64,000 nucleotides of DNA. It comes from Psococerastis gibbosa. Its lineage: Eukaryota; Arthropoda; Insecta; Psocodea; Psocidae. The notes below the pieces were generated by a model. That model did no database searches. It saw nothing but the letters and a program-made list of their open reading frames with translations, and was not told the origin of the DNA. Location of the stretch: positions 33,133,464-33,197,463 of the forward strand of contig OZ020490.1 in the NCBI GenBank assembly GCA_963971405.1. The letters are read 5' to 3'. Below are positions 1 to 55,678 of the stretch, piece after piece; the stretch's first letter is position 1; every line of letters starts with the position of its first letter. Position numbers and translations under genes: made by a program.

Positions 1-3000
1 ACTGTCAATGGTTCCTCTTGAAGTTTAACAGACAAGTCGTCAGGAGTTTGCCCTGCAATCACTGATTTTATTTTGTCAACACCGGAAACGGCTACTCGTT
101 CTACGTCAGGTGTAATTACGCCTGATTTAACATAAACATCTGACACCTTCTCTAAAGTAATGCTGGAGACATCGTTGGATGCTACCTCAACAACCTCATC
201 CGAGGATTCTTTCTCCACAGAGGTTTCATCGGAAATTTCTTTATCTGCAGGGGAAACATCCTTTAAGATGGTTTCATCGGAACCAGCATTAGATGGACTA
301 GGTTCAGCTATTAATTGTTCTTCTTGAAGTCCTGCCTCAACAGCCTCAGACGGGGAAAAAACATTCCCAGATGTTTCATCGGAAACAACTTTAGAAGGAC
401 GAATTGCTTTATGTGATTGGTCGGGAATTTCGACACCTGCTTTATCATCAACTTCCAATACCTTCTCCAGGCTAACGCTGGCTACTTCGTCAGATTCTGC
501 CTCAACAACCTTACCTGGGGATACAATACCCAAAGAGGTTCCATCGCAAACATCATTTGAATGACTTACTTCAATTGCCAATTGAACTTCTTCGAGTTCT
601 AAAGACATGTCATCGGTTATCTCTACATCAACTGATTTTATTTCGTCTACGTGGGAAGCAGTCACACCATGTTTTTCAACGCCTGGTTTTATATCAGCTT
701 CCGACACCTTCTCTATAATTGCGAAGGACTCATCTTCGGATGTCGGCTGAACAACCTCAGCTGGGGATACATCCGCCGCAGGGGTTTCATCGGAGATTAC
801 ATTAGGTTGACTAGCTTCAACTGTCAATTTTTCTTCTTGATGATCCATAGACACTTCGTCAGGAGTTTCCTCTACAACTCCTGCTTTTATTGGGTCAACG
901 TGGGTAACAGCTACACCAAGTCCTTCAACAGGAATTTCGACGTCAGGTGCAACATCAGCTACCAACACTTTTTCTGTAATTACACTGGACACATTCTCGG
1001 AAGCTACCTCAGCATCGTGTGTTAAGGATACATCCTCCACAGAGGTATCATCGGAAATATCTTTAGTTTGACTAACGTCAATTGCCAAATCTTTGAGTTC
1101 TAAAGACGCGTCATCAGTTTTCCCTACAACAACTGATTTTATTTCGTCTGCATGGGGAACAGTGACACGAAGCACTTCAACATCGGGTTGTTTTTCAACT
1201 TCAGACGCCTTCTCTAGAATTACGCTGGTTACTTCCTCCTCCGGCGCAAACTGAACAACCTTACGTAAGGACATTTCATTCGCAGAGGTTTCATCTGAAA
1301 TAACATTATGTTGACTAGCTATAACTGTCGATTGTTCTTCCTGATGTTCTGCCGACCCGTCGGTAGGAGTTTCCTCTACAACTCCTGATTTTATTTCGTC
1401 AGCGGGGGAATCAGCCGCTCCAGGTTCTGCGACTGGGATTTCGACGTCTTGTTCCACATCAATTACCCCGTCTACAATAACGCTGGACGTGTTCTCGGAA
1501 GCTACCTCAGCATCCTCTGTTGGGGCTGCATCCTCCTCGGAGGTATCATCAGAAATATCTTTAGTCTGACTAACTTCGATTGACGATTGGATTTCATCGA
1601 GTTCTAAAGACATGTCATCAGTTTTCCCTACAACAACTGATTTTATTTCGTCTGCATGGGGAACAGTGACACGAAGCACTTCAACATCGGGTTGTTTTTC
1701 AACTTCAGACGCCTTCTCTAGAATTACGCTGGTTACTTCCTCCTCCGGCGCAAACTGAACAACCTTACGTAAGGACATTTCATTCGCAGAGGTTTTATCT
1801 GAAATAACATTATGTTGACTAGCTATAACTGTCGATTGTTCTTCCTGATGTTCTGCAGACCCGTCGGTAGGAATTTCCTCTACAACTCCTGATATTATTT
1901 CGTGAACGTGGGAAACAGCTGCACCATGTTTTTCGACAGAAACTGTGACGACTGGTTTAACGCCAGCTTCCGACACCTTCTCAAGAATTACGCTGGATAT
2001 TTCCTCGGATGCTACCACAACCACCTCTGTTGGGGAGACATCATCCTCTGAAGTTTCATCGGAGAAATCTTTAGGTTGACTTGCTTCAACTGTCAGTTTC
2101 TCTCCATGATGTTCAACAGACAAGTCATCTGGAGTTTGCCGTACAATTACTGATTTTATTTGGTCACCACCGGAATCTGCTATGCTGCGTTCTTCGACAG
2201 GACATTTGACGCCTGATTTAAAACCAACTTTTGACCCCTTCTCTAGAGTAACGCCTGACATTTCGTAGGATGCTGCCTCAACAACCTCATCTGAAGATAA
2301 TTTCTCCATAGAGGTTTCACCAGAAATATCTTTATCTGTTGGGGAAACATCCTTCAGACAGGTTTCATCGGAAAAAGCATTAGATGTACTAACATCACCT
2401 ATCAATTTTTCTTCTTGAAGTCCTGCCTCAAAAACCTCAGACGGGGAAATAACATCCCGAGAAGTTTTTTCGGAAATAACCTTGGAAGAACTAATTGCAG
2501 TTAGTGTTTTGTCGGTAATTTCGACACCTGGTTTATCATCAACTTCCATCACCTTCTCTCGGATTACTCTGGACAATTCGTTGGATGATGCTTCAGTTAC
2601 CTCAGCTGGGGATGCATTATCCACAGAGGTTTCATCGGAAACATCTTTAGGATGACTAACTTCAATTGCCAATTTGTCTTCTTCGACTTCCAAAGACACG
2701 TCATCAGGTGTTTTCTCTACAACTACTGATTTGCTTTTGTCTACGTGGGAAACAGTCACTCCAAGTTCTTCTACGTCTGATTTAATATCATCGTCAGACA
2801 CCTTCTCGAGAATAACTATGGTTACTTCCTCCGACGCAAACTGAACAGCCTCAGTCAAGGAGATTTCCTCCGCAGAGGTTTCAACAGAAATTACATTAGG
2901 TTGACTAGCTTCAACTGTCGATTGTTCTTCGTGATAATCTGCAGACAAGTCGGTAGAAGATTCCCCAAAAACCTCAGATGCGGAAGCATCTTTCAGGGAA

Positions 3001-6000
3001 GTTTCACAGGAAACAACCTTAGATGGACTAGCTTCAACTGTCAATTGGCCTTCTTGAAGTTCTACAGACACGTCCTCAGAGGTTTCCTCTTGAACCAGTA
3101 TTTTTATTTTGTCCACGTTGGAACCGGCTTCAGTTGGTTTTTCGTTGGGAATTTCGGCACCCGATTTAACAACAACCCCTAACACCTTCCTTAGAATTAC
3201 TCTGGACAATTCCTCGGGTGCTGCCACATCAACATCATTTGGGGAAAGACCATTCACAGCTTCAGCTAAGAATTCGTCGTCAGTTTTAACAGCCGGGTTA
3301 ACATCAACTTCCATCACCTTCTCCTCAATTACGCTGTACACTTTCTCGTGGGCAATATGAACAACCTCTGTTGGGGCAAAATCATTCACAAAGTTTTCAT
3401 CGGAAATAACCTTAGAAGGACTAGCTGCAGTTTGTATTTTATCGGTGATTTCGACACCTGGTTTATTATCAAATTCCAACGCCCTATCTAGAGTAACGCT
3501 GGCCACTTCAATGGTTTCTGCCTTGACAACTTCAGTTGGGGATACATCTGCCACGGATTTGTCATCGGAATTATCATCAGTTTGACTATCTTCAATATTC
3601 AATTGTTCTCCTGGAAGTCCAGGCTCACCAACCTCCAATGGGAAGACAACATTCCCAGATGTTTCATCTAAAATAACCTTAGAAGAACTAGGTACAACTG
3701 TCAATTGGTCTATTTGAAGTTCAACAGACAATTCATCAGTTTTTTCCCTTACAACAACCGATTTTATATCATCAACACTGGAAACGGCTACATCACGTTC
3801 TTCGAAAGGAATTTCGACGCCTGATTTATCATCAAATTCTGACACCTCCACTAGAATTACGCTGGCCTCTTCGTAGGATGCTGCCTCAATAAGGTCAGCT
3901 GGGGATACATCCCCCAGAGAGTTTTCTTCTGAACTATCTTTAGATTGACCAATGTCAATTGCCAATTGATCTTCTTTGAGTTCTAATGACATGTCATCTG
4001 GAGTTTTTCTTACAACAACTAATTTTATTTCGTCTACGCGGGAAACAGTCTCACCAAGTCCTTCAACGTCTGGTTTAATGTTAACGTCAGACACCTTCTC
4101 TAGAATTACGCTGGTTAATTCCTCTGACGCAACCTGAACAACCTCAGTCGAGATTTCCTCCGCAGAGGTTTCGTCGGAAATAACTTTAGGTTGACATGCT
4201 TCAACCGTCAATTGATCATCATGATGTTCGGCAGACACGTCACCAGGGTTCAGGGATGATACCTCAACAACTTCAGATAGGGAAACATCTTTCATTGAGG
4301 TTTCATGGGAAACAAACTTAGATGGACTGGCTTTAATTGTCAATTGGTCTTCTCTAAGTTGTAAAGAGACTTCGTAGGGAGTTTCCTCATGAACCAGTGT
4401 TTTTACTTTGTCCACGCTGGAAACGGCTTTAGTTAGTTTTTCGTCGGGAGTTTCGGTATCCGGTTCAATATCAACTTCTGACGCCTTAATTAGCATAGCG
4501 CTGGACAATTTCCCTGATGCTGCCTCAACAAGTTCAGTTAGAGAAGCATCATTTGCAGTCGTTCCATCGGGAATAACGGTAGATGGACTAGCTTCAACTC
4601 TCAATTGTTTTTCTGGATGATCTGCCTCAACAACCCCCTGAGTTTTCTCTGCAACCTCCGATTTTATTTCGTCTACGTGAAAAACAGTCATACCAATTTC
4701 TTTAACGCCTGGCGCAACGTCAACTACTAAAACATTCTCATTAATATCGGGATACACATTCTCGGAAACACCCTCAACAACTTCTGTTGGGGAAACATCT
4801 TTCTCAGTAATGTCATCGGAATTAACCGTAGTCGAACTAATTGCTGTTAGGGTTTTGTCGGGGATTTCGACACCAGGTTTATCATCAGCGTCCATCACCA
4901 TCACCGCAGTAACGCCGGCCACTTCGTCAGATTCTACCCCAACAATCTCAGTTGGGGAAACATTCCTTAGGGAGGTTTCATCGGAAACAGCATTGAATGG
5001 ACTAGCTTCAACTATCAATTGTTCTTCTTGAAGTCCTGCCGCAGCAACCTCAGATGGGGTAACAATATTCTCTTCACTAACGCTGGCCACTTCGTCGGAT
5101 TCAGCCTCAACAACCTCAGTTGGTGAAGCGTCTTTGGCAGTGGTTTCATCGAAAATAACATCAGATGGACTAGCTTCAACTATCAATGTTTCATCTGGAA
5201 GTTCAACTGGCAAGTCAACAGGAGTCTCCAATACAACCACTGATTTTATTTTGTCAACACTGGAATCGGCTGAACTAAGTTCTTCGACAGGAGATCGGAC
5301 GGCTGATTTATCATCAACTTCTGACACCTTCTCCAGAATAACGATGGACACATTTTCGGATTTCTCCTTAACAGCCTCAACAGGTGATACATCCGCCACA
5401 GAGATTTTATAGGAAATATCTTTAGGTTGACTAACGTCAATTGCTAATTTGTCTTTAATTTCTAATGACATGTCATCAGGAGTTTCCTCATGAACCAGTG
5501 TTTTTATTTGGTGTTCGCTGGATACGGCTTCGGTTAATTTTTTGTCGGGAATTATGGTATCCGGTTCCAAGTCACCCTTCTCAAGAATAACGCTGGACCA
5601 TTCCTCTGATACTGCCTCAACAACCTCTGTTTGGGATATATCCATCACAGAGGTTTCAACGAAAATAACATTAAATGGACTAGCATCAACTAACAATAAT
5701 TGTTCTTCTTCAAGTGCTGCCCCAACATCCTCAGATGGGGAGACAACATTCACAGAGGTTTCATCGGAAATAACATTAGGTTGACTAGTTTCATCTCTCA
5801 ATATAACGCCTCCAGACACGTCGTCTGGACTTTCCTCCGCAACCCCCGATTTGATTTCGTCAACAATGGAAACAGCTTCCGTTAGTGTTAAATCGGGGAC
5901 GTCAACATGCGGTTTATCATCAACTACCAACATCTTCTCTACAGTTACGGTGGACCTTTTCTTGGAAGCTAACTCAACAACCTCTGTTCGTAGAATAGTA

Positions 6001-9000
6001 TCTAATAATTTATCGGAAATATCCTTTGGTTGACTATCCTCAACTGTCAATTGCTCTTCAACGGTTTTAGGTAGTCTTTTAACGATGGACTCATTTTCGG
6101 ATGTCGCATCAACAACCACAACTGTTGATACATCCACCACAGAGGTATCATCGGAAATAACAATAGGTTGACTAGCTTCAACTGTCAATTGTTCTTCTTG
6201 TTGATCTGCAGTCATGTCGTCAGGAGTTTCCTCTACAGGCCCTGATTTCATTTTGTCAACGTGGGAAACAGCTGCACAAAGGTTTTCGACAGGAATTTTG
6301 GCGTCTGGTTCAACAACTGCTTCCGACACTTTCTCGAGAATTACGCTGGACACTTTCTCGGTTGCTTCCTCATCCACCTCTGCTGGGAAGACATCTACCA
6401 CTGAGGTTTCATCAGTGAAATCATTATGTAGACTACGTACAACTGTCGATTGGTATTCTTCGTATTCTACAGAAACGTCATAAGGGGTTTCTTCTTCAAT
6501 CGCTGATTTGATTTCGTCAACGTGAGAAACGGTTGTAGGTAGTTTTTCGTCGGTAAGTTCGACTTGCAGTTCAACATCAACTACCAACGCCATATCAGCA
6601 ATAACGCTGGACACGTTCTCGGAAGTTATCGCAGCATCCTCTGCTGGGGAGACATCATCCACCGAGGTTTCATCGAAGATATCATTAAGTTGACTGGCAT
6701 CAACTGTTAATTGGTCTTCTGCAAGTAGTACAGTTGTTTCTCCTACAACATATGTTTGAATTTCGTCAACACTGGAAACGGCCACAATACGTTCTTTGAC
6801 AGGAGATTCGACCTCTGATTTAACATCAACTTCGGACACCTTCTCTTGAATTACGATGGACACATTTTCGGATGTCGCCTCAACAACCCCAGCTGGGGAT
6901 ACATCCCCCACAGAGGTTTCATCGGAAATGACATTGGGTTGACTGGCTTCAACTGTCAATTGTTCCCCCTGATCATCTGCTGACACGTTATCAGGAGTTT
7001 TCTCTACAACCACTGATTTTATTTGGTCTACGTGGGAAACAGCCACACCATGTTTATCAACATCTCGTTTAATACCAACGTCAGACACCTTCTCTAGAAT
7101 TACGCCGGTTACTTCTTCAAACTCAACAACATCAGTCAAGAAGACTTCTTCCGCAGAGGTTTCATCAGAAATAACTTTCGGTTGACTAGCTTGAACTGTA
7201 AATGTGTCGAACTGTAGTTCACTTGATACGCCATCTGGAGTTTGCTCTACATCCACCGATTTTATTTTGTCACCAATGGAAACAGCTTCCACAGCACCCA
7301 CTTCCAACACCTTCTCTAGATTGCTGAACTCTTTTATAGAAGTTATCTCAGTTACCTTCCCTGTTTGAAGTTCTCCGGTCTCGACAGCAGGAGTTTCCTC
7401 TTCAACTGCTGATTTTATCTCGTCAAAGTGGGAAACAGCTTCAGTTTGGCTTCGGTTGGGAATCTTGGTATCTGGTTCAACATCGACTACCAACACCTTC
7501 TCTAGAATTACGCTGGACACATTATCGGAAGCTCCCTCAATGACTTCATAGGTGATAGCCTTAGAAGGACTAAATGCAAGTAATGCTTCTTCTTGGATTT
7601 CGACACCAGGTTTATCATGTTCTGCCTCAACAACCTCCGGAGTTTTCTCTACAACCACCGATTTTATTTCGTCAACAATGGATACAGCTTCCACAGCATC
7701 CACTTCCAACACCTCTAGAATTTCGCTGGTCACTTTCGTGGAAGCTACCTCTGCCGCCTCTGTTGGGGAGGCAACATCCTGAGATAATTTGTCGGAATTA
7801 TCTTTAGGTTGACTTGCTTTAACTGCCACTTCTTGAAGTTCAACAACGTCATCAGGAGTTTTCACTGCAGCTACTGATATCATTTCGTCAATTAGGGAAA
7901 CAGCTACACTATATTCTTCGATTGGACTTTCGACACCTGATTTATCATCAACTTCTGACACCTTCTCAAGAATTTTTCTGAACAATTCCTTGGACGATGA
8001 CGCATCAACCTCAGTTGGGGAAATACCTTTCACAGAGGTTTCATCGGAATTAACCTCAGATGGACTAGTAGTATGTATCAATTGTTTTTCAGGATGTTCT
8101 CCAGACATCTCATCAGGAACCTCCTCTACAACCACTGATGTAATTTCGTCAACGTGGGAAACAGCTTCAGCTAAGATTTCGTCGTGAGTTTTGACAACCG
8201 GTTTAACATCAACCTTCACTTCAGTTACGCTGTAAACATTCTCGAAAGCACCCCCAACAACCTCTGTAGGGGAAACATCATTCACAGAGGTTTCATCGGA
8301 CATAATCTTAGAAGGAGTAATTGCAGTTAGTTTTTTGTCGGGGAATGCGACACCTGGTTTACCTTCAACTTCCAACACCTTCTCTAGAATTATGATGGAC
8401 ACATCCTCAGATGCTACAGAGGTCTCGTTGGAAATATCCTTGGAATAACTAGCTTCAACAATCAATTGTTCTCCTTGAATTTCTCCAAGAACGCCTACAG
8501 GAGTTTCCTCTACAATCACTGCTTTAATTTCGTCAACGTGGGATACAGCAGCACCAAGTTTTCCGTCAGGAATTTCGACGTCTGGTTTAATATCAACTTC
8601 AGACACCATCTCTCTAATTACGCTGGACACATTATTTGAAGTTACCTCAGCTACCTGCCCTTTTTTAGGATCTCCAGACACATCTTCAGGAGTGTCCTCT
8701 TCAACCACTGATTTTACTTCGCCAACGTGGGAAATAGCTTTAGTTTGTTTTTCCTCGGGAATTATGACACTTGGTTTTACGTCAACTACCAACACTTTCT
8801 CTAGAATTACACTAGACACTTTCTCGGGGGCACCCTCAACAACCTCTGTTGTGGAAAAATCTTTCACTAAGGTTTCATCGCACATAACCTTACAAGGACT
8901 GAATGCAGTTTGTCCTTCGCCGGGAATTTTGACATCTGGTGTAACATCAACTTCCAACACCATCTCTACAATTACGCTGGACACTTTTTCGGATGCTACC

Positions 9001-9150
9001 TCAACAACCTCTGTTGGGGACACTTCTTTCATCGAGGTTTCATCGGAAATAACTTTAGGTGGAATAGCTTCAACTGTCAATATTTCGTCTTGAAGTTCAC
9101 CTGGCACGTCATCGGGAATTTCCTCTACAATCACTGATTTCACTGAACTC
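1..9150 (-). repeat. Protein-coding repeat array in the giant ankyrin exon
   Basis: About 40 imperfect copies of a coding repeat. In order, a full unit of roughly 87 residues (about 260 bp) runs SQPKVISDETSVKDVSPTEV, then VEAASENVSSVILEKVSEV, then DVKPGVEIPDEKLTEAVSHV, then DEIKSVVVEETPDDVSGELQ, then EEQLTVEA. Some units are shortened, commonly losing the KPGVE to EETPDD half. Copies differ mainly by substitution and whole-codon indels, so the frame is kept, as expected under selection. Composition is strongly Val, Glu, Ser, Thr and Asp with almost no Trp. It is probably intrinsically disordered and extended. Confidence 0.88.
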
Positions 9151-12100
9151 TTCTCAAATGTCCTGCTATCATCCTTTGTAAGTGAATCGTTTTTGCTATC
9201 TTCATATACTTTATCGGCCCCGAATTCCTTGGCGTTAAACTCCGGATCGTGAACCTCAATACTCTCCATAGATTGCCTGACATTAGTTACCACTTTTTGG
9301 TACGGTTCTTCATGTTCAATAACTGTGGCTTCTGCATGTGGAAGGATAGTAGGAGATTCTAAAATTTGAACATTTTCTGATGATAAATATTCGATATCTG
9401 CTGATTTCTCTGAGTCATAAATTGATGTACGGCTCATTTCTTGGACACTGGCAAATGATGCATCGCCTGAACGTTCGGTTTTTTGCAAACCTATTGTCAA
9501 ATCCATGTTATGGCTTAATGATGACATAGTCCGAGTAAGACTACTGAGAACTTTATCAAGTTTTGGCGATTCTGGTTCTGGAACTGACGGTAGTGTTCCT
9601 TTTATTCCTTGCAAGGTGTCTATTATGCCTTCCATTGCGCGAACAACCCCTTTCGGGGTGACTTGATCGGTTGGCTTCATTTCTGCGGCATTACTCAATT
9701 TTTCTTCTTTTCGTTCACTACTTCCTTCAAACGCGTCTTCTTCAGCTAAAATACCGAAATCAACATTTTTGTCATAGCTTCTCTCTGACATTTCCTTTCT
9801 ATCCAATATAACCCAATCATCTTCACCCTCATGCTCAATAATGTCGTGAGCAGCAACTGGGCTCAATAGTGGGAGTGGAGTTGCGGTTTCTTGCTTATGA
9901 AAAATTACTTCTCTTATCTCCTTCTCGTCGATGGACGGTGCGTCCATTCTTAATGCGTCAATTGGCTGATGGAGGGTGTCTTTCTCCGTATAGCTTTCAG
10001 GGGCAAATATGTTTCCTCCAATAACTTCACCATGACCTTTTACGATATCTATGGAACTATCTACTAAATCATTCTTAATCAGCTTCTTAAGTGTATTGGA
10101 TTCTTCACAACTATCAGTAGAAATAGAGTCATAAAATGATTCCTGAATTTTTGCAACCATTCCCTCTCTATGTGTTGGTAATGGAATTTTTTCAGTATGC
10201 CTAGCTACTTCGGTGGTCACTTCTACCTCTTCACCCTTCTCTATAATATTGCACTCTGAACCTATTTTTTCATTTTTCGTGGCATCTTCATAACTATCAA
10301 CAGTAAATATCTTGTCAATGTTTCCCTCAGCGACAATATAGTCTTTCTTACCTTTTTCAATGGTTCTCTCAATGATGACCTCACGAATTTCTTTTACTTC
10401 ATCGTCTAACGTTGGAAGACCTAACTTAGCACTCATGGTGTTTAAGTCACATGTAAAGGATTTTTCAGTAACTTCAGTCATAAATAAATGGGTCTCAAAT
10501 GTAATAGTATCAATTTTTCTACTATCTGTAGTCATTCTTAACTTTCTTTCTACCGTTAACGAATCATCAGGGGCCTTGTAAGTTTCTGTCCTGTCACCAT
10601 GGTCAGATCGATAAGCTCGTAGAGAATGACTGTCTTGCGTGCTTTCAATAATATCAAAATTTGATGATGTACTCGTTTTTAAGTCTAATAGTTCCGTGAC
10701 GTCTGAATCCGATTCACCCAGAGTTGCTGTTTCATCGTCGAAACCAGACCTTTCACCTGCATTTGCTGTGTTAGTGTTATCTTCTGGCTCTACAATGGTC
10801 GACAGTGATTCTTCTACTTCTCCTCCTTGTTGATTCATTTCAAGGTTATCATTGGTCTCATAATTATCCCCCACTATGGCTTTTCCTTTATTAGTTATTT
10901 CTTCAACAATTTGACCAAGTTCTTCAACACATGCCATTGTACTAGGCAACGTAAATGAACTTTCAGTACCTTCGGGAGTAGGAGTTAAATCAGGTTTCAG
11001 TGATTTTACTTCCCTTTTAATTTGTTTAGAAGCGTTTTCTATTTCAGACATCAGTTCTTCTATATATGACGTAGTGAGGTCATCGTGATCTAACTTTAAT
11101 TCTTTTTTCACCTTGAACATTTTTACTCTACTTTCATCTGTGATTCCAGCTTCCATATCAGCAATGGCAACTTTCTGAGAATACTTCTCAACTTCCTCCC
11201 TTTTTTCAGGCGCTGTCATTTTAACTGGAACAAGATCTTCATTGGACTTTTCAATTCCACCAAGGATTTTACTGCTATATTTAGAGATTTCAATTAACCG
11301 TTCTTCCAAGTCGGTCATTTTACTCTGTAACTTATTTTCTTGGCTTGAAAATTCTTCTTCAAGTACTTTCACCTCTTCAATGGACTTTGTGAATTCATCA
11401 AGGTTCTTCGCCTTCGATGGTGTAAATATTTTGGGCTGTTGTTTTATCGTTTCTTGTTTAATATCTAACGGACTTACAATTTCACTCCCTGCAACTGCAG
11501 CATTTTGGTGTGAATAACTTATTTCAACGTTGATTGAGCTTTCATCTGACAATGGCATTTCAGCTTGGGAGTTCATATCTGTCTCTGCGTCGGAAACAAC
11601 TTGAGTAATTCGATCTATTACTAATTTTTCAGCCTCTATAACATCACTTAGTTTTCTTTCCAGTCTTGTCTCTCTAGGTTCAGAAGTTTTAACATACTCC
11701 TGTACTATCCGCTTTTCAATCGTTTCAATTACTTCAGAAATTTTTGGATATCCAGTCTGCTCATCCTTAACCTGGTCTTTATCTAGAGTTTTCAATTCAT
11801 AGTTATCTGATAAACTTTGGTCTTCATCCTCCGATTTCGTAAATATCTTTTGAAGTTCTTTTATTTTTGGTGATAAATGCTTAGGCGTCGTAGACGCTTG
11901 TTTGATTTTAGTAACTTTTGGCTGTTCAAGTGCGTCTTCTGGGAAGTCAAATACTTTTGAAACATCTGATACCTTCTTTATCGCTGGTGCGTCTTGTGTT
12001 TTTATTTCATCACCAATAGCCTTTCTGTCCACTTTTAAGCAAATATCTTCTATATTGTCCGAGCAGACGTATACAATATCCTTCTTTTTATGTTGGTGGT

Positions 12101-13957
12101 CTGCAGGTCTTTGGCTTGTTTCCTCTAGAAGCCTTACTAGAGTCTTCACATCAGAACTTTTTATTTCAACATGAGCTGGTTCGATGGATGGTTCGGGGTC
12201 ATGGTGTTTAATTCTTGTAGCTGTTATTACTTCTTCAACCTCTTTCTTAGCAGAGGTAGTAGAAGCTTTTGAAGCTAAAATCAAATCTTCAATTCCGTAT
12301 GAGCTTCCAGATAATATTGGACTGTTGCTGGCGTCTCGATGTTCAATGAAATCTGTCCCGATGCCTGTGTCTGAGGTTTCAAAGCCGATTGGACTTGTAG
12401 CCACACTTGTAGATTCAGCAGTCTCAATAGGGCTGCTTGCAGTATCATGATACTGAATTGGCGGCTCTTCTACAAAAAGCGGCTCAGCAAAAGTATTTCC
12501 TATTTCATCTGCTAGTATGGGGCTTAAACCGGCGTCGGTCATTTCAAACTCTTCGGCTTCGAAGTCAATAGCTGTATCTGTATAAGGCTTGACAAGCAAA
12601 GGTTCTAATGACTTCCCAGTCTTGCCGCTGTCCCCAGTCGTTCGTGTAACACTAATGCCCGTGTCAGTGACGTGTTGGGAATAACTCCTCTCAGTAACAG
12701 GAGAATCGGGACTTATCGCTTCAACAGACTGATAGTGGTACACACTTTTCTTTCCACTAAACAATACAGTTTCATCTTTTTTTGATTTTGAATCAGGTTT
12801 CTCTTCTGCTATAGGCGGTATAATTAATTCATCACAATCTGATGGAGTTCTAACCAATGACGATTTTTTCGGAGATTTCCCCATGTCGGTAGTGGCTGTA
12901 GAACCGACTTGTACATTTTCTTGAGTTTCTTTACCGTTAGCGTCCCTCCGCGTTGTTGTTACACTTATGTGGCTCTGCGATCGGATTGATATTTCAACGT
13001 CTCTACTTCCGTACACGGTAACACGACTTTCTGAGGTAGCACTTGTCTCTCTTGTTTTAACTTCTTTTCTACCTATGACCAATTCGAGAGTTGGTTCTCC
13101 TCTATGATGCTCAGCAATTGCTGCATCGGCCATGGGGCTTGTACCCTTATCAACATGAGTCTCCTCATCTTTTCTACCTTTCTCAATATCGTCAACTCCT
13201 CCAGTTAATCGTTCAACGAACCTAACTGCTCTCTTTTCTTCCTCCATACGCTTCATATTTTCGGCGTGTTTTGAATCTTTCGCTCCCTTTTCTTCGTCAG
13301 GGGAGAAGGTTTGCAAAGCATTATTTGTGTATCTTAAATCGTCATAGGCAGCCTTTATCTTCATTACCTGTTGTTCATCATATTTCTCATTTTTATAATC
13401 TTTAAAATCATCTTCGTCTTTACCTAAAGAATCTTCAACATCACTATCATCATTTTCTTCATCGGACGCGAGTTGAGATCGAGTGGAATCTTGAGAATCA
13501 TCATCGTCACGTTTGGTGACAATCCTGGAATGTCTGCTCTCGAGTTCCGAGAAACTTTCCTCCCCTTCATAAAACCTTCTCTTAGTCTTTTCTTGAACTT
13601 CATCAAAAATAGACACATCTTCTTCACAGAACAAATCATCGTTATCGTTTTCATTGCCAATACTAAAGTCTTCAAAATCGTCAGTCTTTCTTACTATGGA
13701 ATGTACCGAACTCTCTTCCGAAAATGCAAAAGAGTCTTCTTGACTCAATGTCGCAGCCTTCTCAAAATATTCTTCAGTCAGTGCCTCCTCGTCGAATGTG
13801 GCTATCGTTCGCTTAAATGCTCGAGGTGTAATCAGTTGGGAGTATTTCCGAGCATGCTCTCTCGGGGCCTGTGCTGTCGGTGTATCTGCCAGACTTTGTT
13901 CTTGAAATCCCTCAGTGTCAAATGAGTCGTCATCGTCCAGCGGTGACTCAGTCGAAA
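1..13957 (-). CDS. Ank2: Ankyrin giant exon (partial, runs off the left edge)
   Basis: One uninterrupted minus-strand frame, at least 4,651 codons, from a strong acceptor (CTTTCCTCGCCAG) at 13958-13970. The frame was checked as constant by codon position at 13955, 9815, 230 and 59; no stop or donor is seen before the edge. It begins STESPLDDDDSFDTEGFQEQ. Residues 1 to about 1,600 are non-repetitive and acidic, with Ser/Thr-rich and helical stretches and a WVIL motif near residue 1381. From about 9150 down to 1 it is a degenerate Val/Glu/Ser/Thr repeat. In flies and worms such tails belong to axonal isoforms that organise the membrane skeleton and microtubules; that role is inferred here. Because the exon has neither start nor stop codon in the window, searches for complete ORFs miss it and report only antisense or off-frame shadows. 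Confidence 0.92.
1111..1900 (-). repeat. Near-identical duplicated block inside the repeat array
   Basis: About 280 bp at 1111-1390 recurs 504 bp away at 1615-1894, with only about half a dozen differences seen. Other repeat units are much more diverged. The offset of 168 codons is about two repeat units, which suggests a recent in-frame duplication or gene conversion. Confidence 0.75.
9804..9815 (-). other. Candidate LC3/Atg8-interacting motif in the giant exon
   Basis: Codons for Trp-Val-Ile-Leu (tail residues 1381-1384) in the context EDDWVILDRKEMSER. This fits the W-x-x-[LIV] core with acidic residues before it and a charged, probably helical segment after it. Giant exons of vertebrate ankyrin-B and ankyrin-G carry a very tight Atg8-family binding motif of the same form (acidic, W-V-I-V-like core, charged helix). 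Binding here is predicted, not shown. Confidence 0.55.
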
Positions 13958-14852
13958 CTGGCGAGGAAAGCAGACGATCGAGTAAATCACAGAGCCTCGT
14001 TTATTAACTGTCAATATCATTGGGTGGTGACAGTCGTTCAATCTTACTAACCTCATACTTATACGATACGATATATTACATGCTACTCTGATGACATCTC
14101 AACACAGCACCGTGAGTATGGACATTATCAAACACTAGACAGTTGAGGACAGTTTTATCGCACCCAACGATATGTCCCTGGACACGGAATTTGATCGATG
14201 ATTTGACGCCAATAACAACAATCATATTAATTATTTCAATAAATAGTTAAGTTACTGTACCGGTACCTAATATGAGAAATGAATGATCCACATCGCGCAT
14301 GCTCAAACACCGATTTAAACCACATCTATTGCCAACATAACTGCCACCGATTCTGACCCACAATCCTAAGAGAGTGAATACTAAAAAAAACGCGGTTAGG
14401 AAGGAATTCAAAGGAAGGATTGGGAGTAATGTACAGGGATATTTCAAAAACAGGTCTCCAAACTCGTTATCAGCTCAATGTGTTTCATTGGCGTAAAAAA
14501 CAAAATTGGACTTGGAAAATGATTTTTTGTTTGTTTATTGTTTTGGGAGATGCAAAGGGAAAAAAGCAAGATTGAAGGTTCAAAACTTTTATTTTAATAA
14601 AAATTGTTTCCCATCCGCCTGCCGTCCCACAATAAAAATGAACAGTTCTGTTGCAACAATTAAGCGGCGAGTACTTAATTTAAAGAGAGAGGTGGAGCTT
14701 AATATTTGGTGAATTTTTTATTTTAGTTGCCCAACAATAGGGTTACCAATCGCGAAAACTAAAAATTAATCCACCCCTCTCTTCAAAAGTTAAGTACGTT
14801 GATATGCCGCACCAATCACAGCAAGACAGAGGCCCTCCTGTCGGGTTTCCTA

Positions 14853-16790: not shown

Positions 16791-17480
16791 GCGTCCGACC
16801 GGGTCGAGTATAAGAAATGGGCCGGGGTGAGAATAGGACCATCCGGAGGCTGGCGAATGCAAGGCCACATGATAGGAGACTCATCGGCAGACCGAGGACA
16901 ATCCTCGAGGAATGAGTCGAGCAACTCGCCGGAGCAAGAGGAAAAACAATGGCCAACCGGGTCGAGTATAAGAAATGGGCCGGGGGGAGAATAGGACCAT
17001 CCGGAGCTGGCGAAAGCAAGGCCACAAGATAGGAGACTCATCGGCAGACCGAGGACAATCCTCGAGGAATGAGTCGAGCAACTCGCCGGAGCAAGAGGAA
17101 AAACAATGGCCGACCGGGTCGAGCATAAGAAATGGGCCGGGGGGAGAATAGGACCATCCGGAGCTGGCGAAAGCAAGGCCACAAGATAGGAGACTCATCG
17201 GCAGACCGAGGACAATCCTCGAGGAATGAGTCGAGCAACTCGCCGGAGCAAGAGGAAAAACAATGGCCGACCGGGTCGAGTATAAGAAATGGGCCGGGGG
17301 GAGAATAGGACCATCCGGAGCTGGCGAAAGCAAGGCCACAAGATAGGAGACTCATCGGCAGACCGAGGACAATCCTCGAGGAATGAGTCGAGCAACTCGC
17401 CGGAGCAAGGGGAAAAACAATGGCCGAGCTCAAGACGTTAGTGTCCGACCGGGTCCCGTATAAGAAATGGGTCCGGGGTG
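16741..17480. repeat. 157-bp minisatellite derived from a LINE 3' end
   Basis: About 4.5 tandem copies. GCAACTCGCC starts at 16921, 17078, 17235 and 17392, exactly 157 bp apart. Internal units are nearly identical; the first and last are diverged. Read forward, a unit gives NRTIRRLANARP and IGRPRTILEE, the LINE C-terminus. Open minus-strand frames here (up to 225 codons) are artefacts of repeated GC-rich sequence. Confidence 0.9.
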
Positions 17481-34565: not shown

Positions 34566-34631
34566 CTTTAATAAGGAAATCAGCTGGACTAGGTGGAGGC
34601 GTCTTCGATGTTGCAGGCTCCAAAGTTTGTT
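34566..34631 (-). CDS. Ank2: Ankyrin micro-exon: proline-rich linker
   Basis: A 66-bp exon giving E plus QTLEPATSKTPPPSPADFL and IK. The acceptor is TTGTTTCCAG above 34631; the donor is GTAGGA from 34565. It enters in phase 1 (G from the previous exon plus AA makes Glu) and leaves one G. That G joins TT of the giant exon 20.6 kb away to make Val, so this exon and the giant exon are phase-compatible. SKTPPPSP is a plausible proline-directed kinase or SH3-binding segment, by inference. Confidence 0.82.
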
Positions 34632-34755: not shown

Positions 34756-35233
34756 CTTTAGATGATACAACAGTGCAAGTCAAGCGTCCTAGACTCTCCG
34801 AAACTCCCTCAAAAAGCTCCGAATCCCTCCTAATAATTTCAGCAGCGGCCTCTTGTGCAAGAAAATCAGCAACTTCATCTTTAACCTCCTTTTTGGTACT
34901 ATCCGCCAGTAATTTTGATTCTTTCTGAGATATCAAAATATTCTCCGTCGTTTTCGATACCTTGTCACTCTCCTTCTTAATGCCGTCTTGCAGGCTCTTT
35001 TGACTGGGTGTTTGCACCAGTTCTTGGAATTGTGATATCTTTTCTTTTACTGTTAATTGTGGCTCTTCTTCCACCACTATAGGCTCTGTTTCATGTTTAG
35101 TTTGTATTATTTGTGCCTGAGAAGCTATCTCAGATTCTATAAATTCGGACGTGGTTCGAGATGGTTTAGATTTTGAAGATTTGTCGGATTCTATTGAGAG
35201 AGATCGCCTTTGAATACTCGTGGCTTGTTTCTC
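34756..35233 (-). CDS. Ank2: Ankyrin exon: acidic linker of the tail
   Basis: A 478-bp exon, 159 codons plus one base, starting in phase 0 with EKQATSIQRRSLSIESDKSS. It is low-complexity and charged, with a likely amphipathic helix around QLTVKEKISQFQELV and another around KKEVKDEVADFLAQEAAAE. No enzymatic or binding domain is recognised. The acceptor is CATTTTTCAG above 35233; the donor is GTGAGT from 34755. The SRRSLS-like Ser cluster near the start could be phosphorylated; that is inference only. Confidence 0.85.
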
Positions 35234-36672: not shown

Positions 36673-36848
36673 CTGGGAGAGCCGCCTTTCAATCTCTTGC
36701 TTTCTCTCTTTTACAGTCTTCTTCTCCTCTTCATCCACGTCCTTTTCTTCAGCTAGGTACTTCCGCTCGTCATGACTTTCAAGTCGGTCAGTTCGAACCA
36801 GATCTTCAACGGATTCGGACATTTTTGTGAGGTCACGCTCGTCACTTC
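36673..36848 (-). CDS. Ank2: Ankyrin exon: charged post-death-domain linker
   Basis: A 176-bp exon, two bases plus 58 codons. It encodes SDERDLTKMSESVEDLVR and a Lys/Glu-rich segment ending KERKQEIERRLSQ, predicted helical or coiled-coil. It has no named domain. Support is splice logic: acceptor ATGAACAG after a T-rich run above 36848, donor GTTAGC from 36672, phase matching both neighbours, and no in-frame stop. It belongs to the invertebrate-type tail that follows the death domain. Confidence 0.85.
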
Positions 36849-37440: not shown

Positions 37441-37563
37441 CAGCACGGAGGGTCCCAAGTTCCTCCTTTCGTGCCGGAGATGTTCTCGCAGCTTCATTGA
37501 AGATACACTGCTGCGCGACATCACTTCTTCCAATCCGGTTCAGTGCAGATTCTAAGGCTCGCC
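37441..37563 (-). CDS. Ank2: Ankyrin exon: last helix of death domain
   Basis: A 123-bp exon. After completing Gly it reads RALESALNRIGRSDVAQQC and IFNEAARTSP, corresponding to the final death-domain helices (ankyrin ALE.AL.RIGR.D....C.FN). It ends KEELGTLRA plus one base. The acceptor is TTCAAATTAG above 37563; the donor is GTATGT from 37440. The trailing G plus GA of the next exon gives Gly. Confidence 0.9.
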
Positions 37564-38001: not shown

Positions 38002-38205
38002 CTGAAGCTCTGTTGCCTTGCGAGTTGAGCCAGAGACGAAGCATTGCCCTAGCCTGCTGAGCTGCGTTACCAGGTGTCTCACTCTTCACAAGCTTCACAT
38101 CACCATCAGGTATTCCCAGGTGTGGCGCAAGGCTCACCCAATCTGACCCCAACAGATTGGATAAGTCGGATAAACGGATATCAGTTCTTTGTGCTTCGAT
38201 CCCAC
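38002..38205 (-). CDS. Ank2: Ankyrin exon: death domain, main part
   Basis: A 204-bp exon beginning (S)GIEAQRTDIRLSDLSNLLGS and continuing DWVSLAPHLGI, then a C-terminal half with ARAMLRLWLNSQGNRAS. The DIRL..L...LG.DW..LA..LGI pattern and the MLR.WL helix identify the ankyrin death domain. The acceptor is a strong pyrimidine tract ending CTTTCAG above 38205. Open frame continues upstream to about 38290, but only this acceptor keeps frame with the previous exon, whose A plus GT gives Ser. The donor is GTACAG from 38001. Confidence 0.93.
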
Positions 38206-38488
38206 CTGAAAGTAACGAAAGTGCACTGTCTGAGCTTGTTAATTTGTGCGCAGGTATCGTGTTCTCTTCCGTAATATACGAAGGTTCCAAGAAGCCAATG
38301 TAACCCTAATAGTTAGCCATGCTTTTAACAAGGAATTGACTTACGCAGAAAGATATGGGATACAGAACCTAAATGGAACCAAAGAGAATGGCCCTGGACA
38401 GAGATTAATGTGGGAGAAGATGGAAAAATTTGTTGCGAACCATTGTCCAATCGATAGATTGCAACTAAAGAAGAAGATTGCTACTTAC

Positions 38489-38624
38489 TGTCTCTAAGAT
38501 ACGCTACTTTCTTCTGCAATGCAAGCAGGTCGGCTTCGGAGGATGATGTCTCCGGGATGATTTTGTCAGGCAGGACGATATTCAAACAGCATACCGGTTG
38601 CTGAGGTGCGTCACCCTTGCTGAC
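38489..38624 (-). CDS. Ank2: Ankyrin exon: end of UPA and linker to death domain
   Basis: A 136-bp exon, 45 codons plus one base. It starts VSKGDAPQQPVCCLNIVLPD, the last strand of UPA (ankyrins have VCNLNI.LP here), then a Ser/Glu-rich linker and a short helix, ALQKKVAYLRD. The acceptor is CTTATAG above 38624; the donor is GTAAGT from 38488. The last base A joins GT of the next exon to make Ser. Confidence 0.93.
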
Positions 38625-38803: not shown

Positions 38804-38986
38804 CTTTGCTTCTCGCATAAAGAGCAGGCGTCCAATAGAGTCTACATGAGGATCTTTGACGCGGACGGTAAATGGTAGGCGATTTTCCTTGAAGGCTCGG
38901 AATCCCAATTGCAATTGGTCTCCAGATTTTGTCACAGGCACCATATTGCCAGCAAGCTCCACAAATTGAGGTTTTCCTTCAAGAAC
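38804..38986 (-). CDS. Ank2: Ankyrin exon: UPA domain, second part
   Basis: A 183-bp exon, exactly 61 codons, phase 0 at both ends. It begins VLEGKPQFVELAGNMVPVTK and holds the conserved core FKENRLPFTVRVKD, then GRLLFMREAK. KENRLPF is almost invariant in ankyrin UPA domains. The acceptor is a T-rich run ending AAAAG just above 38986. The donor is GTAAGA from 38803. Flanking introns are short (255 and 179 bp), unlike the 12.7- and 20.6-kb introns elsewhere in the gene. Confidence 0.95.
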
Positions 38987-39241: not shown

Positions 39242-39377
39242 CTCAACGTCTCGGCTTTTGGCTACTTCAGTGAAATGTTCCTGATGTTCGAGCGTTTTGT
39301 CTTCACGATCATCTGTCATGCAGAAGACGCGAAGCCTAGCTTCCTGCGGATCAACTCTCTTGGCAAAGACAACGAAC
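39242..39377 (-). CDS. Ank2: Ankyrin exon: UPA domain, first part
   Basis: A 136-bp exon: one base completing Lys, then 45 codons. It reads [20 protein letters not shown], then [15 protein letters not shown], and ends KSRDVE. In ankyrins this UPA stretch packs against the ZU5 domains to form the ZU5-ZU5-UPA supramodule. FCMTDD and DKTLE are family hallmarks. The acceptor is TTACCCAG above 39377; the donor is GTGAGA from 39241. It ends on a complete codon. Confidence 0.95.
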
Positions 39378-39988: not shown

Positions 39989-40178
39989 TTTGCCATGAAC
40001 GGAACATGAATGGCTTCACGATAGAGATCGGTAGCCATTTTGGTAGCTTCACTGATGTTACGACAGTCCATAAGCCAGAATCTGGCCGAAACAGTGGTGG
40101 TAAAGGAGACGCAATCGTTGACGAAGGTAAGAGGTGTGGACCCAGTAACGTCTTCCCATTGGGCGCGCGATGTTCCGC
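39989..40178 (-). CDS. Ank2: Ankyrin exon: end of ZU5-C and start of UPA domain
   Basis: A 190-bp exon. It opens [14 protein letters not shown] and continues through [21 protein letters not shown] to [20 protein letters not shown], ending in VPFMAK. This is the join between ZU5-C and the UPA (UNC5-PIDD-ankyrin) domain and is close to vertebrate ankyrins residue by residue. The acceptor is TTGCAG just above 40178; the donor is GTAAGC from 39988. It starts in phase 2 and ends with AA, which takes G from the next exon to give the Lys of MAK. Only 611 bp separate it from the next exon, and that intron holds a histone H2B retrocopy. Confidence 0.95.
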
Positions 40179-52898: not shown

Positions 52899-53103
52899 CT
52901 GTTATGGAGCATAAAAGTCGTAATGTAGGGGCGTCTCCAGAATACTGGTTTATCATCCCCTTGTTGGCCGCCCTAGGTACAGGTATTGTCAGAGTAATAG
53001 GCTTGTGGAATTTACGTCGCCGAGGTTCGACCGTAACGATGGGCGAGACTGCCACTCTGTTCCCCAGAAGTTTTGCAGTAAGCTCTGCGGGGATAGGTTG
53101 AGC
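52899..53103 (-). CDS. Ank2: Ankyrin exon: second ZU5 domain (ZU5-C)
   Basis: First visible exon of a minus-strand ankyrin, the adaptor that ties membrane proteins to the spectrin skeleton. It encodes 68 residues plus one base. It begins AQPIPAEL, includes the ankyrin signature [16 protein letters not shown] and ends LRLLCSIT, matching the spectrin-binding ZU5 region of animal ankyrins along its whole length. The acceptor is TTCCAG at 53104-53109. A stronger-looking CTGCAG slightly upstream is rejected because it puts a TGA in frame. The donor is GTATGT from 52898. The trailing G joins GC of the next exon to make Gly, restoring the family sequence ITGGTS. A 12.7-kb intron follows. The symbol denotes the giant-ankyrin class (Ank2/unc-44-like); strict orthology cannot be shown here. 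Confidence 0.95.
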
Positions 53104-54699: not shown

Positions 54700-55045
54700 T
54701 AGGAATTAAATGATATTATTTGTGGCTGTTATTGTGTTTCCTAGAGCATCGGAGAGGGAGGAGGGTGCTCGTAGGACGGAGGCTCGTTGGACCGAGTAGG
54801 TTGGGCAATCGAGAAGAAGGTGAGCTATTGTGAGGGCCACTCCGCACCTTGTGCATAGGGGGGGGGGGGGCGCCTCATTCCTCATTAGATGTTTGTGAGT
54901 GAGGTTTGTATGCCCTATTCTAATTCGGGCCAATACAATTTCCTCCTTGCGGCTGATTCGATAGGACGTGTCCCATTCTGTTATGATGGGCTTAACTGCT
55001 CGCAATTTGTTTTGCACGTAGGCTGTGTAATTGTTTGGTTTTTTA
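54700..55045 (-). mobile_element. LINE RNase H / C-terminal remnant
   Basis: Minus-strand frame with SYRISRKEEIVLARIRIGHT, NLTHKHLM, then PLCTRCGVALTIAHLLLDCP. R-x-x-E-x-x-L-x-R-x-R-I-G-H-T and the C-x-x-C-x(7)-H-x(4)-C zinc pattern are typical of the C-terminus of Jockey/I-type LINE polyproteins after the RNase H domain. No 5' part is seen. Confidence 0.8.
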
Positions 55046-55678
55046 ATTGAAGGGAATACTAATAAAAATTAAAATGGTAGAATTTTGATACATAATAAGA
55101 ATTTCAATTAATGTGTAGGTCTACATCTAAATGAGAAAAAAATTGAAAACTCACCAAAAATATAGCCAAGGATAAATTTATCAATTTGAATTTCCCGCGC
55201 GTTTTGCATTCATATGTTTAAAACAATTGAATGAACCCCGGTATTATGTTAATCCCAAATCGGGATAATAGAGCAGCCGATGAATTGTTCATACTAGAAT
55301 CACCCATGGGCTCCTCATGGCGGATAAAATGTTAAGCCTTGTGACATTTAATTTCTAGACGATCGGAGGCTTAGAGAGACCATTAGAGGGACCGCGGACT
55401 ATTTGCTAGTAATGCCAGTGTCTCGCGGACCGCCAGTGGTCGTTACCGCCAGTGGCCGTTATTAATATTGTTTCTGTATAAATTTTCGGCCATTTGCAAA
55501 CTGGTATACGTTCTCAATGTCAACCTACACCGGCTACAAGCGACAATGGACAAGCTGAGACAAGCTTACCATTGACGCAATGCATGACTTAACCAAGTAC
55601 AGATACGAGTCTAATCGTATGCAAGCAATTTAATGAATGCATCCGATTGACCTCTTCAGTCACCTCTGTAGTCACCTC

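Follow-up and report, generated by a model that had tools for sequence, protein, structure and literature searches.

The stretch analyzed here, hereafter the window, is 64,000 nucleotides (nt) of contig OZ020490.1 from the Psococerastis gibbosa assembly GCA_963971405.1 (forward-strand positions 33,133,464 to 33,197,463), and it carries part of an ankyrin gene in which ten exons are followed by a giant open frame. All coordinates are window positions, negative numbers denote the left flank, and the ankyrin gene lies on the minus strand. The source contig (C15; 34.8 Mb) belongs to an assembly of 409 Mb in 68 contigs, and we added 60 kb of flanking sequence to the left of the window and 70 kb to the right. 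Only one stop-to-stop frame of at least 300 codons occurs within the window, on the minus strand at 3..14000, with 4,666 codons and an open left edge. Its exon starts at 13957, behind the acceptor TTTCCTCGCCAG/TTTCG in phase 1, and the preceding exon, E10, ends at 34566 with the donor AAAG/GTAGG, also in phase 1, leaving an intron of 20.6 kb between the two. The ten upstream exons (E1 to E10), every one preceded by AG and followed by GT, join in phase to encode 632 residues.

A preliminary description of the locus had claimed a single-exon frame of at least 4,651 codons, phase-matched to the exon upstream, and a visible protein of more than 5,280 residues; its coordinates and counts were exact, its one-exon status holds at the level of sequence, and we count 5,284 residues with no stop across E1 to E10 and the window part of the giant exon. 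Following the frame leftward to its stop codon, as had been proposed, showed that it extends 30,021 nt beyond the window to a TAA at -30019 to -30021 in flanking sequence of the same genome, making the exon three times as long as its window part. The full giant frame comprises 14,658 codons (43,979 nt including the stop), and a separate genome search returned an open frame of 14,673 codons from stop to stop with no internal stops. That 1-13957 and its continuation form one exon joined to 34566 is supported, as judged from sequence. The features of the gene within the window, all on the minus strand, are as follows.

1..13957, continuing to -30021, minus strand: giant exon, window part (open frame, phase-1 acceptor, flanking sequence, genome search)
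9144..13957, minus strand: unique acidic N-terminal part of the giant exon, 1,604 residues (repeat profile mapping)
1..9143, minus strand: start of the repeat array of the giant exon, from residue 1605 on, the array running past the window to about residue 12,258 (repeat profile mapping)
34566..34631, minus strand: E10, a short exon joined to the giant exon by its phase-1 donor (splice sites, phase)
34756..35233, minus strand: E9, charged linker (splice sites, open frame)
36673..36848, minus strand: E8, charged linker (splice sites, open frame)
37441..37563, minus strand: E7, end of the death domain (splice sites, ankyrin-2 alignment)
38002..38205, minus strand: E6, death domain, first part (Pfam Death, E 4.6e-10; splice sites)
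38489..38624, minus strand: E5, end of UPA and linker (splice sites, ankyrin-2 alignment)
38804..38986, minus strand: E4, UPA domain, second part (Pfam UPA_2, E 7.7e-22; splice sites)
39242..39377, minus strand: E3, UPA domain, first part (Pfam UPA_2, E 9.7e-22; splice sites)
39989..40178, minus strand: E2, second ZU5 domain, second part (ankyrin-2 alignment, splice sites)
52899..53103, minus strand: E1, second ZU5 domain, first part (alignment to ankyrin-2 structure 4d8o, splice sites)

The ankyrin identity proposed in that description is borne out by the Pfam UPA_2 and Death matches and by a 369-residue alignment of the core with human ankyrin-2 (4d8o, E 4e-116), with ankyrin-1 and ankyrin-3 also matching. 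We take the domain beginning in E1 to be a ZU5 domain by name, and this second ZU5 is also supported by alignment to 6m3q and other structures. No Pfam match to a first ZU5 was found within window positions 39,002-64,000, and 11 ankyrin-repeat stretches (E ≤ 0.05; exon-sized frames, approximate query) lie on the same strand at 80,035-99,895. As expected, no relatives of the core protein were found in viral or prokaryotic contigs. Of the features that define giant ankyrins (Jegla 2016), which also include 24 N-terminal ankyrin repeats and a ZU5-ZU5-UPA cassette, the death domain is present and the long exon of more than 3 kb downstream of UPA appears, from the sequence, to be present as the 43,979-nt frame. 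Ser and Glu make up 25.1% of the giant-exon product, versus an average of ∼25% in published long-exon polypeptides, and Ser, Glu, Thr, Asp, Lys and Pro together make up 51.3%, below the published average of >55%. The open stretch directly upstream of E6, at 38206-38305 (minus strand), looks protein-like and has a phase-0 acceptor; it is incompatible in phase with the E5 donor and may be an alternative exon.

To judge whether the frame is coding, we scored 100-codon windows with a codon table taken from the ten upstream exons only, excluding stop codons. In the window part, the giant frame was the best and positive in 47/47 scoring windows. In contrast, intron windows were barely positive in 4/67 cases even when the best frame was taken, with a highest value of 0.052 versus a lowest exon value of 0.063. 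Across the whole exon, the frame was the best of three in 145/147 windows and positive in 145/147, with exceptions at residues 12,700, 14,300 and 14,500. The other two frames of the same strand contain 329 and 599 stops, and a first-order Markov model of the exon puts the probability of 4,651 open codons at ln P ∼ -313; on this value and the 47 coding windows, a chance open frame was rejected. We additionally compared signals within the frame with synonymous shuffles. Donor-like sites number 46 at a score of at least 7 (shuffle mean 55, range 36–72) and seven at a score of at least 9 (mean 12.9, range 5–23), counts that lie within the shuffled range and give no clear signal of donor avoidance. 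Poly(A)-like signals are not avoided, with 112 AATAAA/ATTAAA hexamers in the giant exon versus a mean of 81 (63–99) across 200 shuffles, a comparison in which repeat copies are not independent.

The exon product has a mass of 1,588 kDa (1.59 MDa) and an isoelectric point of 4.23, and can be divided into three parts. Residues 1-1604 are unique and acidic. They are followed by an array of 10,654 residues (1605-12,258) with a net charge of -1,790, built of ∼125 degenerate units, each ∼85 residues long, whose starts are mostly spaced 83, 87 or 86 residues apart. With a repeat profile built from window units only, 142/146 profile pieces outscored every one of 20 shuffled versions of the full product, and the largest gap between them was no more than 61 residues. 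The 27 nearly full units of the window share a mean identity of 45% (range 25–95%). Ward clustering placed the 112 nearly full units of the whole exon in four classes, while average-linkage clustering did not separate them: class D (32 units) is diverse, with a mean identity of 0.44; it dominates the first third of the array and returns in the final few units. The remainder alternates between class A (35 units), class B (21 units) and class C (24 units), whose mean identities are 0.71–0.74. Duplicated blocks of ∼3.9 kb at 98% identity and of 1.3 kb at 98.8% identity (1,479 nt exact) occur within residues 7,941-10,864 and their copies. The third part is a unique C-terminal tail of 2,400 residues (7.2 kb), which starts near neutral to basic, with a net charge of +33 over residues 12,527-12,926. 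This is the only basic stretch of the tail, and it contains the sole strict SxIP motif of the whole exon (residue 12,715); nine TD[VITSL]E motifs follow it in the tail.

The repeat unit is predicted to be disordered. A model of two units, based on 12 aligned segments from this single exon (including a poorly placed one), reached a mean predicted local distance difference test score (pLDDT) of 40.7. Pfam returned nothing above cut-off for the repeat, the best sub-threshold hit having an E of 0.011, and PDB gave no match at E ≤ 1; on these results together a folded repeat domain was rejected. A repeat shared with other genes was likewise rejected, because all 79 genome matches to the repeat, among the best candidates scored, fall inside the giant frame.

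The array appears to grow by duplication that preserves the frame: all 16,288 pairs of shared 30-mers are shifted by a multiple of three, across 306 distinct shifts. We then asked how copies diverge, using the ratio of non-synonymous to synonymous substitution rates (dN/dS). The most recent copies gave values of 1.10, 1.14, 1.16 and 0.98 (the second and fourth comparisons overlap), an older duplication of 168 residues gave 0.11/0.18, or ∼0.65, and older unit pairs had a median of 0.75 (342/351 pairs). Under unconstrained drift, the three independent recent block pairs should have acquired 2.98 stops, and none is seen (P 0.048). For the 27 window units, 34.5 stops would be expected under neutral drift and none is seen, a figure that is an upper estimate and overstates the expectation because units are treated as independent. 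Since recent copies have a dN/dS near 1 and no stops, the frame seems to be kept while its residues are almost free, which fits a disordered spacer; such near-neutral drift fits a spacer role better than 125 conserved binding sites.

The genome contains two UPA loci, the second belonging to another ankyrin gene at C15:9915032-9915947. Since the longest frame in the 50 kb below that locus, on its strand, has 795 codons, the giant exon is unique to the first ankyrin gene by the 3-kb criterion. Downstream of the giant exon, three further long frames of 667, 1,004 and 2,357 codons lie on the minus strand at -36622..-53627, and the longest has an ankyrin-tail-like composition (Ser+Glu 26.7%); they are probably further long exons of the giant ankyrin gene, like the L exon of the fly. 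The odorant-receptor family 7tm_6, which we take to be insect-specific, yields six matches over cut-off among 27 scored candidates in this genome, against zero across 14 control genomes. The presence of this family and of two UPA loci, matching insect Ank and Ank2, points to the gene being the counterpart of Ank2 and to an insect genome that has a plain ankyrin gene as well as a giant one, as in Drosophila. Six 7tm_6 matches are few for an insect and possibly indicate an early-branching or specialised lineage.

Giant ankyrins are known from all bilaterian groups examined (Jegla 2016), so the kind of gene found here is already known and this one is a new, extreme case. The preliminary description had called the exon unusually large with reference to vertebrates; this stands against the 7.8-kb exon of ankyrin-G, although invertebrates with known long exons are the better comparison. 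The long exons compiled in Jegla 2016 have a mean of 8,103 bp (standard deviation 4,850, n=30), which allows a maximum possible value of ∼34 kb; the 43,979 nt found here therefore lie outside that set, 7.4 standard deviations above its mean. Repeats in those exons span 36–228 bp in 5 to >160 copies, and the unit here, at ∼255 bp, falls just beyond that range. As a rough guide, four insect genome papers give 10,240, 14,940, 32,355 and 13,185 bp for their longest annotated exons, from annotations that may miss giants. Our literature search found no ankyrin exon of ∼44 kb, and since sequence databases lay outside that search, a record for animal exon length cannot be claimed.

A close match in design is Drosophila Ank2-XL, likewise an insect neuronal ankyrin with a giant exon after the death domain that is mostly a repeat array, an additional long exon in the giant gene and a second ankyrin gene without a giant exon. 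The fly array consists of 93 highly conserved repeats of 76 residues, which by arithmetic places the XL exon above 21 kb, whereas the array here, compared by description, has ∼125 degenerate units of ∼85 residues, divided between an older, mixed section and a younger one in which three classes alternate. The whole Ank2-XL protein is 1,200 kDa, versus 1,588 kDa from the exon alone here. The giant isoform of C. elegans UNC-44, a cortex-microtubule linker in the worm, also has a single-exon giant tail after the death domain. Vertebrate giant ankyrin-G (480 kDa) is neuronal and has a giant exon with a Ser/Glu-rich tail, but its exon lies upstream of the death domain and lacks repeat arrays, and the long exon of a Ciona ankyrin (13,344 bp) likewise precedes the death domain. 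Long-exon polypeptides of distant phyla are reported to have no detectable homology.

Taken together, we consider it likely that the locus encodes an insect neuronal giant ankyrin, the counterpart of Drosophila Ank2 with an XL-type exon, whose disordered array would act as a spacer linking the axonal membrane skeleton to microtubules. In this mechanism, a single exon of up to 43,979 nt after the death-domain exons would give the protein its 14,658-residue tail. By analogy with known ankyrins, the ankyrin-repeat end would bind membrane proteins and the ZU5-UPA part would bind spectrin. The array would be an unfolded spacer with a strong negative charge, setting either a distance or a crowding layer. 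The unique tail, basic only in its first part, may contact microtubules or a microtubule-associated protein, such that the whole protein would bridge the axonal membrane skeleton to microtubules. In the fly, the C-terminal repeat region of Ank2-XL is reported to be essential for microtubule interaction, and a spacer role has been proposed for the array, only a fraction of which is required for axon diameter. The array would grow by in-frame duplication, with residues nearly free to drift and with length, charge and the open frame kept.

Several observations weigh against this reading. The scoring windows at residues 14,300 and 14,500 are negative and the last ∼400 codons are weakly coding, and the frame contains donor-like sites, the best near its end at residue 14,247 with a score of 9.2 (the ten model donors range from 4.6 to 12.3). 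For these reasons the exon may end before the TAA, although it would still be at least ∼42.7 kb long if the donor at residue 14,247 were used. Since further long frames follow on the same strand, the TAA also need not terminate all isoforms. The orthology to Ank2-XL is argued from position and design only, and the duplicated blocks of 1.3–3.9 kb are 98–99% identical, a range in which assembly errors are possible. The window part contains 5 SxIP motifs where shuffles give 4.5, and enrichment of such EB-binding motifs was rejected there.

Near-identical blocks are what would be seen if a real gene had its array inflated by misjoined copies or strung haplotypes, the true exon being much shorter. 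We regard this as improbable: the block copies differ by 35, 35 and 19 substitutions, every shift between shared 30-mers preserves the frame, the 194 kb that we joined contain no N within a 34.8-Mb contig, the first ∼35 units are diverse, and, by arithmetic, ∼38 kb would remain if each large block lost one of its copies. It is unlikely, though somewhat easier to accept, that short stop-free introns or an earlier donor split the 44-kb frame into more than one exon, as the 46 donor-like sites and the weak coding score near the end would permit and as is known from the intron-split long exons of horseshoe crab, sea urchin and zebrafish. Across residues 1605-12,258, however, repeat coverage is never interrupted for more than 61 residues and no frame shift occurs, and the frame is the best almost throughout; an intron may lie in the unique 4.8-kb start or in the 7.2-kb tail. 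A separate gene with its own promoter, downstream of a short ankyrin, is very improbable. The long intron behind E10 and the position of the first Met, at residue 198, could be explained in this way, but the consensus acceptor at the start of the frame shares its phase with the E10 donor, 197 codons precede that Met, and protostomes as a rule have their giant exon in this position, following the death domain.

With regard to function, the array could instead be a multivalent binding platform with one partner site per unit, for instance for a microtubule-associated protein, and so more than a spacer. The mild constraint in older unit pairs and the recognisable blocks kept in the units are consistent with this, which is possible but doubtful given that the newest copies evolve with a dN/dS near 1, that the 12 aligned two-unit segments contain no invariant column, and that Pfam and PDB returned no family or structure for the repeat. 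The spacer reading can also be taken further, as a single 44-kb exon, the longest of any ankyrin and perhaps among the longest coding exons of animals, encoding an ankyrin of ∼1.7 MDa or larger in which the array is a purely physical spacer and selection acts on frame, length, negative charge and disorder while residues drift near-neutrally. We put this forward tentatively, with less confidence than doubt; if true, length itself would be the selected trait, tuned via in-frame higher-order duplication.

With ∼125 units in one exon, some in blocks copied recently enough to be 98–99% identical, the locus offers a natural test of whether length or sequence is under selection in the thousands of unfolded tail residues of giant ankyrins. 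The first answer, a recent dN/dS of ∼1 in an intact frame, speaks for length, charge and disorder. An exon of 44 kb with 112 poly(A)-like hexamers, more than in any of the shuffles, must also be transcribed and spliced through, which strains current ideas of exon definition and 3′-end formation. For annotation, the locus serves as a warning, since sequence windows or gene callers that accept only complete frames catch just a fragment of such an exon.

Apart from the ankyrin gene, the window contains no Rfam matches and no tRNAs. Positions 16795-17427, in the 20.6-kb intron downstream of E10, hold four copies of a G+C-rich 157-bp unit that are 98% alike. A second intronic stretch, at 54709-55068 on the minus strand, resembles the tail of a retrotransposon RNase H/reverse transcriptase (zf-RVT, E 0.016, below cut-off) and is a putative mobile-element remnant.

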